Below the pieces are notes generated by a model. That model made no database searches. It worked only from the letters and a program-made list of their open reading frames with translations, and was not told the DNA's origin. A program made the translations under genes and the position numbers. From positions 1-13,800 of the forward strand of contig JALOPK010000057.1 of NCBI GenBank assembly GCA_025453925.1: DNA of 13,800 nt, given 5' to 3'. The first letter of the stretch is position 1, and every line of letters begins with the position of its first letter. Shown here one piece after another: positions 9,217-12,962 of this stretch. Source of the DNA: Candidatus Eiseniibacteriota bacterium. Its GTDB lineage: Bacteria > JAFGKV01.

Positions 9217-10089
9217 ATGCTTGATCTCGTGACCGAAGGCTTCGCGCGCGCGGTGCTGGAGCCGTTCTCCTACCCGTTCATGGTGCGGGGGCTGCTCGCG
9301 GCCGTGACGGTCGGCGCGGTATGCGGGATGGTCGGCACCTTCGTGGTGCTGCGCGGGATGGCATTCCTCGGGGACGCGCTGGCGCACGCAATTCTGCCGG
9401 GCGTGGCCACGGCCTACCTGTGCGGCGCAACGCAGAGGGGCACGCTCTTCTGGTGGGCGCTGCTCACTGCGGTGGGCGCGTCACTGGGCGTTGGCGCCAT
9501 CTCGCGGTCAGAGAGGATACGGGAAGACACCGCCATCGGCATCGTATTCGCGGGCATGTTTGCGCTGGGTATCGCGTTGATCTCCACGATGAAAAGCTAT
9601 ACGGTGGACCTCGCCCACGTACTGTTCGGCAACGTGCTGCAGGTCTCGTGGGCGCACTTGCGCACCATGTGGACATGCTCGGGAGTGGTGGTTCTCCTGA
9701 TGGTCTCGTTCTACAAGGAGATGGTGGTGCTATCGTTCGACCCCGTCTTCGCCTCGACCCTCCGGCTGCCCTCCCGCTTCCTCCACTATCTCATGCTGGT
9801 GCTGATCGCGGTGGTGATCGTCGTGTCGCTCCAGACCGTGGGCGTCGCGTTGGCAGTGGCGATGCTGGTGACGCCCGCCGCCACTGCGTCACTGCTGACC
9901 GGCCGGCTGCGGCGCATGATGGCCCTCGCTGCGGGCCTCGGCGCGGCATCGGGAGTTGCAGGCCTCTATCTGTCCTACTATCTGTCCATGGCACCCGGCG
10001 CCGCCATGGTTCTGGTGGCCACCGCATGCTTCCTGGTGGCCTTCGCGATCTCACGGAGGCGGCGCATCCCCACGACACGCAGCGGGTAA
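9217..10089 (+). CDS. Zinc/manganese ABC transporter permease (ABC-3 family)
   Basis: The 290-residue product is an integral membrane protein of the ZnuB/MntC (ABC-3) family and forms the membrane channel of the importer. The family signature MAFLGDALAHAILPGVA (residues 48-64) follows the first membrane helix (about 23-45). Further hydrophobic segments lie at about 76-92, 108-124, 155-165, 190-216, 228-252 and 260-278, consistent with eight or so helices. The product ends in a basic RRRR-type cytoplasmic tail. VGVALAVAMLVTPAATASLLT (208-228) is the conserved late motif. The start is the ATG at 9217, the only start that gives the family N-terminus, although the best ribosome site is better placed for an overlapping mini-frame. 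It is the last gene of the plus-strand run. Confidence 0.92.
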   Translation: MLDLVTEGFARAVLEPFSYPFMVRGLLAAVTVGAVCGMVGTFVVLRGMAFLGDALAHAILPGVATAYLCGATQRGTLFWWALLTAVGASLGVGAISRSERIREDTAIGIVFAGMFALGIALISTMKSYTVDLAHVLFGNVLQVSWAHLRTMWTCSGVVVLLMVSFYKEMVVLSFDPVFASTLRLPSRFLHYLMLVLIAVVIVVSLQTVGVALAVAMLVTPAATASLLTGRLRRMMALAAGLGAASGVAGLYLSYYLSMAPGAAMVLVATACFLVAFAISRRRRIPTTRSG

Positions 10090-10102
10090 AGCCGGAACCT
10101 GT

Positions 10103-10130
10103 GCACGGAATGGGGGGACGGCCTCCGTGC
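10103..10130. terminator. Possible hairpin at the end of the mfd-metal operon
   Basis: Seven-bp arms GCACGGA (10103-10109) and TCCGTGC (10124-10130) enclose a 14-base loop in the 61 bases between the convergent permease and repeat-protein genes. There is no T-tract. The position favours a transcription end, but the structure is weak. Confidence 0.3.
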
Positions 10131-10150
10131 CCGCCCTGCGCGGCGCCTGT

Positions 10151-11827
10151 CTACGGCCCAGAAAGCGGAAACCACGCACGGATCTCGGCCTCAAGCATCT
10201 CGAAGAACCCCCGTTTCTTCGGTCTGGACGGCGCTGGCGGATGATGAACCCAGTCCATGTGGGAGCCCGGTAACAGCCCGTACTCCGCCCGTCGAATCAG
10301 CACGCCGGCACCCCTCTCCATCAGGTCCTCAGCACGTCCCTTTCCGAGAACCCTTGACTGGTCAGCGATAAAGGCCGCTGCGGTGCGGATTGATGTCTCG
10401 GTCCACGCAGCCAAGTAGTCCGCGATCATGGAGAGCACGCACCGGGCCCGATCATCAAGCATCGGCAGAACGCTGTCGATGGCGCACCTCGCGGCCTCTG
10501 ATCCGGTACAGACACCCCCCGCGAGGACGGCGCGAGTCCTCTCGTACAGATCCCAGCGGCCCTCCCGGGCTCTGGGGGTCTCACCTGGCACGATCGCAGG
10601 GTGCACCCGCTCCACGTACAGGCCCAGCAGTTCGCCGGCAAAGAGCTGCCTTATCAGTGACCTCCAGCCGCTCTCCACCATCTCTGCTTCCCAAGCGTCT
10701 CCCAGAACCCTCGCGTGTTCACAGACGATGGCTGCAGCCGCAGCGATCGGAATCCCCTTCTCCGCGGAGACATGGTCCGCCAGGATGGCCATCCTGCAGC
10801 GAGTCTCGGCAGCGACGTCTGGCCAAAAGGCATCCATGAAGGCCCTGGCTGCCTCTGAGCCATTGCAGGGGTGCCTGCGCACGCCCTCAAGCCTGTCGAG
10901 CAGGTCGTGAATCCTACCCCGTGTTCTGCGGGATCCTTCAGGAGAAACGAGGGAGTTCGCCCACTCCCCGAAGAATGGCGGAAGCTCGCTGTACCTCGCC
11001 TGTCTGACGGTTTCCTCCGCGCCCCCCCGTTCCGCCTTTCTCCCTGTACCCCGCCCCATTGCTCTCGCATGATCACAGACGAAGGCGGCTGCAATGCCGA
11101 TTGGTGTCTCAGTCTCCCTGGCAATGTGATCAGCGATGATGGCCAGCTTGCAGCGAGTCCGTGCATCCAACTTCGGCAACGCGCTGTCGACGAACGCTGC
11201 CGCGGCGTCTGATCCGACGCAGGGCGCCTCATCTGGCCGATCGAGCCGCTGGATGAGGCCGTGCGGCAGGCGAGCCCTGATTCCCCCATACTCCGTGCCT
11301 GAAAGAAGCCACCGCGTGTCTCTGGGATCAGCGTACAGCCTCAGCCGCCCACCCCCCGCATGGAACCAGTGGTCCCCCGAGGTTGGGTTGGTACGCTGCA
11401 GGTCCTCAATGTAGACGTAGCAGTGGACTACGACATCGCCGCCATGGGGAATGATGATGGCGCTCACCCCAAAGCTGTCGGGAGGGGCGACGTCAAACTC
11501 CCGAAATTGTCCCTGAGTCACTGTGGCCCGCGCCGGAAGAGGAGCGATCCCCCACACTACCCGCATTTTCAGAGAACTCCGGCCACACGTGGGTTCGCGG
11601 TGAAAGCCGCCCTTCCCCGCGATCCTCACCTCCGACCCAACGGCGATGGGCCCGACTGGCTCCGATACTCTGACTCCGGAGTGAGCTAGTTCCGAACTAT
11701 ACCTGCCACCATGGGAATGGAACCACCCCCAGGCGAGGTCCTCGCTGGCATCCGCGGCATTGCCAGTGATGGCCAGGGATGCGATGAAAACGCCAATCGC
11801 AGTTGTTGCGATTCCGTGGGTGCACAT
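10151..11827 (-). CDS. Exported protein with three tandem Cys-containing repeats, unknown family
   Basis: I do not recognise this 558-residue protein. Residues 1-25 form a signal peptide (MCTHGIATTAIGVFIASLAITGNAADA). Residues about 45-175 look beta-rich (VGSEVRIAGKGGF, SAIIIPHGGDVVVHCYVYIED, GGGRLRLYADP). Then come three copies of a roughly 118-residue unit whose conserved core starts at 202, 320 and 439. The pattern is xCxGSxAAxxxxD...P.L...(T/A)RC...xxIADH/Y...I..AAAxxxxxxxRxxG. Cysteines fall at 203/226/251, 321/344/369 and 440/463; the third cysteine of the last copy is Ala488. Each core is followed by a less conserved segment (RYSELPPFF, LFAGELLGLY, AEYGLLPGSH). The cores are predicted helical, and disulphides are plausible outside the cytoplasm. 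The ATG at 11827 has GGGAGGGAG 8 bases upstream and opens directly into the signal peptide, so the frame to 11935 is not used. Function unknown. Confidence 0.75.
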   Translation of the reverse strand: MCTHGIATTAIGVFIASLAITGNAADASEDLAWGWFHSHGGRYSSELAHSGVRVSEPVGPIAVGSEVRIAGKGGFHREPTCGRSSLKMRVVWGIAPLPARATVTQGQFREFDVAPPDSFGVSAIIIPHGGDVVVHCYVYIEDLQRTNPTSGDHWFHAGGGRLRLYADPRDTRWLLSGTEYGGIRARLPHGLIQRLDRPDEAPCVGSDAAAAFVDSALPKLDARTRCKLAIIADHIARETETPIGIAAAFVCDHARAMGRGTGRKAERGGAEETVRQARYSELPPFFGEWANSLVSPEGSRRTRGRIHDLLDRLEGVRRHPCNGSEAARAFMDAFWPDVAAETRCRMAILADHVSAEKGIPIAAAAAIVCEHARVLGDAWEAEMVESGWRSLIRQLFAGELLGLYVERVHPAIVPGETPRAREGRWDLYERTRAVLAGGVCTGSEAARCAIDSVLPMLDDRARCVLSMIADYLAAWTETSIRTAAAFIADQSRVLGKGRAEDLMERGAGVLIRRAEYGLLPGSHMDWVHHPPAPSRPKKRGFFEMLEAEIRAWFPLSGP

Positions 11828-12065
11828 GGCTGGATCTCCCTCCCTATCGGTAGCCCAAGGGCTCCCCCAGTTGAGGGCAACAGGGCGCAGTGAGAATGTA
11901 CCACTCCCCTGGCTCTCTTCATAGGGAACGAGCACTCGCGTTCCCTATCCCCACTGCGACGGACATCGCCCGCCCCTCTCTCCAACGAAGGACGCCGAGT
12001 GGGGATTCCTCTCCTATGCGACTGGCTTGCCGCTGACCCCTCGCCCCTGACGCCTCACTCCCCTC
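11828..12065. promoter_or_regulatory. Leader/promoter region of the repeat protein with nested inverted repeats
   Basis: These 238 bases contain no gene. They hold a perfect inverted repeat (ATAGGGAACG 11921-11930, CGTTCCCTAT 11939-11948) and a wider one (ATCCCCACT 11947-11955, AGTGGGGAT 11998-12006). The heptamer ATAGGGA recurs on the minus strand at 11847-11841, next to the ribosome site. No clear -35/-10 pair was found. Confidence 0.5.
11921..11948. repeat. Perfect 10-bp inverted repeat upstream of the repeat-protein gene
   Basis: Arms ATAGGGAACG and CGTTCCCTAT flank an 8-base spacer. It lies 94-121 bases upstream of the repeat-protein ATG and about 118 bases past the diguanylate cyclase stop. 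There is no T-tract on either strand, so an operator or mRNA-leader hairpin fits better than an intrinsic terminator. Confidence 0.6.
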
Positions 12066-12962
12066 CTACCCCACCGTGAGCAGGTTGCGGCCTGATTCCT
12101 TGCTCTGATACATCAGCCCGTCGGCACGGGCGATGATGGTGTCGGGCGTGTCGTCGGGCACGCCAAGGGTGGCGCCCAGCGACGCCGTCACGGAGATCCG
12201 CGTCCCCTCGTGCGTGATGAAGCTCTGCTCGATGAGCATCCGGATCCGCTCGGCGATCTCGACGAGCATGGATGCGGTGACATTGTCCAGCACGATGACG
12301 AACTCATCGCCGCCCCGGCGCGTCACCACGTCACGGGGACGTACTGAACGCTCGGCGGTTCTCGCCACCATGAGGAGCACGTGATCGCCCACCTGATGGC
12401 CGAACGCGTCATTGATGAACTTGAAGTGATCCACGTCCAGAAACACGATCCCGAAGGGAATGCCATGAGCGGCAAGGCGCGCGAGCCGGTCACGAAGCGT
12501 CAGTTCGCATGCCTTGCGGTTGCCGGCATCGGTGAGTTCGTCCACACGCGCCTCGCGGCGCGCCTCCGACAGGTCCCGGAGCAGGTCATGAACGCCGTTG
12601 TCTTCCGAGAACACCTCGATCGCACCGATCACCATGCCGCTCGAGTCTCGGATGGGCGAAACCCTGACCGTAACCGGCACCCGGTGCCCCTGCTTGTGAT
12701 GGAGGTAGACATGCGACTCACGCGTCCCCCCGTCCTCGACGGCCGCGGCCAGCGGACAGTGGCCCGTACAGAGCTCTTGACCACGCTCGTCCACGTGCTG
12801 GAGGATACCATCGGAACAACGCGAACCCACGACCTCCGCACGGGAGTAGCCGGTGATGCGCTCCGCGGCGGGATTCCAATAGGTGATCCGCCGGTGCCGG
12901 TCGGTCGCATAGACACCGTCGGGGATGCTGTCCAGCAGCAGCTCTGCGTTGAGTACGGTCAT
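12066..12962 (-). CDS. PAS-GGDEF diguanylate cyclase
   Basis: The 298-residue product is a cytoplasmic sensor that makes cyclic di-GMP from GTP. A PAS domain (about 5-120: LLDSIPDGVYATDRHRRITYWNPAAERITGYS ... VPVTVRVSPIRDSSGMVIGAIEVFSE) is joined by a helical linker to a GGDEF domain (about 140-295). The active site is intact: FLDVDHFKFIND (Asp176, Asp178), GHQVGDHVL and GGDEF at 217-221. An inhibitory I-site RPRD (208-211) lies five residues before GGDEF, so product feedback is expected. The PAS domain carries Cys49 and a LCTGHCPLA motif (Cys65, Cys69) that could hold a metal or sense redox. No membrane segment is seen. The start is the ATG at 12962; a GTG at 12965 directly precedes it, with AAGG about 8 bases upstream. 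A palindrome lies 48 bases upstream of the start. Its target process is not apparent from the neighbours. Confidence 0.92.
   Translation of the reverse strand: MTVLNAELLLDSIPDGVYATDRHRRITYWNPAAERITGYSRAEVVGSRCSDGILQHVDERGQELCTGHCPLAAAVEDGGTRESHVYLHHKQGHRVPVTVRVSPIRDSSGMVIGAIEVFSEDNGVHDLLRDLSEARREARVDELTDAGNRKACELTLRDRLARLAAHGIPFGIVFLDVDHFKFINDAFGHQVGDHVLLMVARTAERSVRPRDVVTRRGGDEFVIVLDNVTASMLVEIAERIRMLIEQSFITHEGTRISVTASLGATLGVPDDTPDTIIARADGLMYQSKESGRNLLTVG

Follow-up and report, generated by a model that had tools for sequence, protein, structure and literature searches.

The window, the whole stretch of 13,800 nucleotides analysed here, contains on its minus strand a complete gene of 558 codons plus stop (10151..11827), recognized by its open frame, its homology to other Fermentibacteria modules, and its codon usage. 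The original prediction gave these coordinates correctly and left out the strand. When all six frames were compared with the codon usage of the neighboring genes, this frame fitted best, if weakly (-0.04 bits per codon), and its GC3 is 0.71, compared to 0.78 to 0.86 in the core neighbors and 0.80 in a paralogue from the same genome. A possible ribosome-binding site, GGGAGGGAG, read directly from the sequence, lies 8 bases before the ATG (11836..11844, minus strand). About residues 1 to 25 (11753..11827) form a predicted signal peptide, as indicated by a hydrophobic stretch, a helix at residues 6 to 21 of the structural model, and equivalent N-termini in relatives; the cleavage site was placed by eye. 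The signal peptide is followed by an Ig-like beta-sandwich domain at about residues 49 to 168 (11324..11683), which is indicated by model strands, structural alignment with VIA-align, and a weak sequence match to the N-domain of the relatives. The remainder consists of three helical units, comprising residues 202 to 319 (10871..11224), 320 to 438 (10514..10870), and 439 to 558 (10154..10513), each of them supported by unit-to-unit scores, the model, a tree of units, and an independent profile. All these features are encoded on the minus strand. An HExxH motif was not found in the 558 residues, and the frame stops after unit 3.

The AlphaFold2 model of the protein was calculated from a thin alignment of 8 rows and has a mean pLDDT of 60.6. 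It contains eight strands at residues 55 to 162 and, after these, one order of helices that recurs three times at this modest overall confidence, with most core helices at a pLDDT of about 75 to 88; the units are thus predicted to have a helical fold. Sequence and model agree with the original description of a probably exported protein with a beta-rich N-domain and helical repeats. Comparison of the N-domain with solved structures by VIA-align gave Z scores of about 9 to 10 and rmsd values of 2.3 to 3.7 over 95 to 111 residues, the matches being Ig-like domains of transglutaminase 2, bacterial alpha-2-macroglobulin, and C3. These structural matches concern the Ig-like domain alone, as none of the rows listed aligned to the helical unit. 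The Ig-like fold is common and says nothing of function. The top whole-length Foldseek matches, to complement proteins, were discarded as meaningless, as their TM score was about 0.15 and only the Ig-like domain aligned. A search of a viral structure library gave no match.

The triplicated unit

As originally described, the copies begin at P202, P320, and V439, with spacings of 118 and 119 residues. Local BLOSUM62 scores between the units were 200, 197, and 144, compared to a mean of 28 to 29 and a maximum of 62 for shuffled sequences (1000 for each comparison). A profile built only from the single units of other genes recognized exactly three domains in the window protein, at residues 209 to 296, 325 to 407, and 444 to 530, with scores of 39.8, 21.7, and 47.6 bits; the best score among 2000 shuffled proteins was 6.9 bits. 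The three-unit repeat in this protein is confirmed. The motifs Cys-x-Gly-Ser-x-Ala-Ala and (T/A)RC are present in all three copies, and the third cysteine, found as C251 in copy 1 and C369 in copy 2, is replaced by Ala488 in copy 3, all as first noted. The IAD(H/Y) positions that had been listed as shared hold with the exception of copy 2, which reads LADH, not IADH, and copy 3 carries an additional cysteine, C448, that had been overlooked.

The statement that the protein belongs to no named family stood up to searches of Pfam, NCBIfam, and PDB sequences with the window protein and the unit profile, none of which gave a convincing match; in Pfam, the window protein had no match up to an E value of 10. 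A single weak match to an entry of unknown function was obtained in PHROGs (E 0.004). A TPR identity of the units was rejected on the basis of the Pfam result, the nearest hint being a marginal match of one relative's unit to TPR_14 (E 0.019 for the unit by itself, 0.12 within the whole protein).

In a tree of units, those of the window protein group as a single clade (support 100/99) separate from all single units, which places the triplication within the lineage of the window protein itself; long branches could exaggerate this clade. The window units share pairwise 33 to 40% of their residues and 52 to 55% of their bases, and no long DNA repeats remain between them, so that the triplication must be old. 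Half of the residues that are identical between the units are encoded by different codons, and third positions are conserved least, which suggests that the protein has been under selection for a long time. Unit 3 is nearest to the single units of the relatives, with 34% identity to the paralogue of the same genome versus 22 to 23% for units 1 and 2. Flanking repeats of the mobile-element type were not found around the gene.

Genomic site and relatives of the module

The gene is arranged tail to tail with the zinc-uptake operon znuABC, in a gap of 1977 bp between znuB and a PAS-GGDEF gene (window 10089-12066). In a sister genome, G001, znuA-znuC-znuB is likewise followed by the GGDEF gene; znuB and the GGDEF gene are only about 125 bp apart, and no copy of the window gene lies in between. 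Because the flanking genes are syntenic there without it, the window gene is accessory and was either gained in the window or lost in G001. Its GC3 below that of the core neighbors makes weak constraint or a foreign source possible. A link to zinc through znuABC was rejected, since the operon is convergent to the window gene and keeps its place without it in G001. Two further open reading frames of the window, both on the minus strand, had no Pfam match. The one at 884-1642 looks exported and has a fibronectin-like tail (..SNTVGEYE) that resembles the ends of Fermentibacteria peptidases (..SNTVGEFEF), and this tail is possibly a C-terminal domain common to exported proteins of Fermentibacteria. 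The other, at 1672-2871, is conserved at 50% in G001 and partly in G002, and by eye looks ATP-grasp-like or glycosyltransferase-like.

Homologues of the arrangement of signal peptide, Ig-like beta-sandwich, and helical unit, hereafter called the module, were found only in three Candidatus Fermentibacteria genomes, namely the window's own genome (G000), G001, and G002. The other copies in Fermentibacteria usually have one unit and usually precede a secreted HExxH metallopeptidase. Such combinations occur at G000:C16, G001:C112 (JAFGKV010000082.1), G002:C203 (JAUXFG010000003.1), and G002:C276, so that all four members of this peptidase family detected in Fermentibacteria carry the module. When GTDB was scanned with a closer alignment as query, at one genome per species, two loci only were returned, both from Candidatus Fermentibacteria (JAFGKV010000082.1 and JAUXFG010000003.1). 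Beyond Fermentibacteria, about 430 genomes (383 from mixed phyla and 47 from another phylum with a related peptidase) yielded no convincing copy, and no relatives of the window protein turned up among plasmids and viral contigs. The search of the 383 genomes gave three short matches at E 0.003 to 0.008, which were regarded as chance. Short, weak matches in G006, G096, G363, and G021 (E 5e-5 to 0.008) were not common to the query types and were likewise treated as chance, as was a match at G000:C126 (E 0.008) on the opposite strand of a long, repeat-rich open reading frame. With single sequences as queries, the matches span N-domain and unit (residues 18 to 276 in G001, E 2e-12; residues 85 to 285 in G002:C158, E 4e-15); an independent profile of the N-domain scored only 15 bits against the window protein.

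In the peptidase fusions, the Ig-like domain precedes the unit wherever the contig extends that far, and the unit is followed by a transthyretin-like region, an HExxH catalytic part with a downstream EGWA motif, and C-terminal beta domains. The peptidase tails are BACON-like, carboxypeptidase-regulatory-like, and fibronectin-like, as judged from weak profile matches and inspection by eye. The models of the window protein and of the G002:C276 fusion both have an eight-strand N-domain. In the fusion, the Ig-plus-helical module is predicted with fair confidence and is followed by roughly 45 residues that are charged and predicted with low confidence; from residue 374 on, the pLDDT is below 50. 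Just before this fusion gene (L016:774-4406) lies a truncated, 87% identical copy of the helical unit (L016:2-607), which represents a recent tandem duplication that the contig end interrupts. At G001:C112 (L031:1060-1090) and G002:C203 (L032:6210-6240), module and metallopeptidase are in different frames, the split being at different places, which may reflect an assembly error, gene decay or real breakage, or a natural splitting of module and enzyme. A free-standing protein of 381 residues with one unit is encoded at G002:C158. Homologues thus share the architecture and differ in repeat number, as anticipated for a family, with one unit in the relatives and three in the window protein; the unnamed, lineage-confined domain family with its triplicated member in the window is real.

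The secreted peptidase family itself, defined by the transthyretin-like region, HExxH, and EGWA, was present in 12 of 386 genomes (L004, L016, L031, L032, L044-L052), and the two Fermentibacteria members scanned in Pfam gave no metallopeptidase match. The module could not be detected in nine more distant peptidase relatives from other lineages, and in L045, L049, L050, and L051 the transthyretin-like region directly follows the signal peptide. The module is hence a lineage-specific accessory part that is not needed for folding of the enzyme.

The comparison with relatives overturned the view of the cysteines as hallmark of the repeat. The first two cysteines of each unit occur only in the window protein. 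Nearly all of the cysteines are missing from the relatives, which have V and R (or V) at positions one and two, and V, R, or G across the cysteine positions. The third cysteine is common only to the window protein and the G002:C276 units. Moreover, DsbA and VKOR were not found in the three Fermentibacteria genomes, of which one has a completeness of 82%. The label "Cys repeats" is misleading for both of these reasons, and the cysteines are, as judged from the aligned units, a trait local to the window protein. It is very unlikely that they form a disulfide or metal site in each unit that would make the repeat rigid or metal binding: two positions are kept as cysteine in all three units, with three cysteines per unit if C448 replaces the third in unit 3, and a zinc-uptake operon adjoins the gene, but the mature protein has an odd number of cysteines, eleven, and the zinc genes do not form one operon with the window gene.

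Possible functions of the freed module

We tentatively favor, with a probability of about 0.4, the reading that the window protein is a multivalent binder that is exported, has no enzyme part, and stems from the N-terminal accessory module of the peptidases. In the secreted HExxH metallopeptidases, the module sits between signal peptide and catalytic part; in the window lineage, it stands alone, and its helical unit was triplicated long ago. Each unit would then most likely contact the same kind of partner that the peptidase-borne module may contact, candidates being a substrate protein, a cell surface component, or the peptidase itself, and three units would add avidity. This reading is preferred because the module is tied to secreted proteases wherever the enzyme is present in Fermentibacteria, lacks a catalytic motif, and has been freed and multiplied. 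Neither a catalytic motif nor a family was found in the window protein, and the single-unit protein at G002:C158 provides a stand-alone relative. On the other side, GC3 and codon fit of the gene are below those of the neighboring genes, and the confidence of the AlphaFold2 model is low to middling. The originally proposed binding scaffold is a reasonable guess from the sequence.

The main rival is a propeptide-like inhibitor or regulator, in which the module would keep the peptidase latent and the free protein would act after export as a three-headed inhibitor of the same enzymes. The window protein shares homology with the N-terminal part of a secreted peptidase, the module lies between signal peptide and catalytic part in all four peptidases, and the charged stretch after the module of G002:C276 is a possible cleavage site. 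Precedents by analogy come from other families, in which free-standing propeptide-like proteins are inhibitors of cathepsins and of a malaria subtilisin (PMC6993865, PMC4089206). We nevertheless consider this role rather unlikely, as peptidase relatives in other lineages lack the module, the free-standing module genes are not adjacent to a peptidase of the same family, and a module of two domains is large for a propeptide; the poorly predicted part of the G002:C276 model gives no usable docking picture. It is less probable still that the gene is a relic left over from a broken peptidase gene and now drifting. Its low GC3, its absence from the same site in G001, and the frameshifts in two related peptidase genes fit such decay, but the frame of 558 codons is intact, and the three units keep their invariant positions at a DNA identity of no more than 52 to 55% and with no long repeats left, which argues that frame and residues were maintained for long.

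A further and quite doubtful reading would make the freed, multiplied metallopeptidase module a three-headed inhibitor or a substrate-capturing adaptor that regulates a secreted protease, with a fold of its own that is confined to one candidate phylum. What the locus offers is a small domain, unnamed and confined to its lineage, which goes with all detected Fermentibacteria members of one secreted protease family and which, in the window protein, has been freed from the enzyme and amplified. If its partner is the protease or a substrate of the protease, it would provide a testable handle on extracellular protein handling by these uncultured anaerobic fermenters.

Among known systems, the closest are the Fermentibacteria metallopeptidases, whose modules run from signal peptide through Ig-like domain to helical unit, as in the window protein, and are homologous to it across the module. 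They differ in having one unit rather than three, followed by the transthyretin-like region, the HExxH part, and the C-terminal beta domains, and in lacking the first two cysteines of the window units. The G002:C158 protein is, like the window protein, an exported module without catalytic part, but has a single unit whose C-terminal helical end is complete, and lies at another chromosomal place. There is nothing unusual in the repeat architecture: TPR-like scaffolds are likewise built from all-helical repeats, although the TPR unit has 34 residues, compared to about 118 in the window protein, which has no TPR match. The I29 inhibitors CTLA-2alpha and crammer and the Plasmodium protein SUB1-ProM (PMC4089206, PMC6993865) belong to unrelated families with unrelated enzymes, and the window gene does not adjoin the gene of the peptidase; by analogy, however, they resemble the window protein as cases in which the N-terminal module of an enzyme occurs as a free protein.
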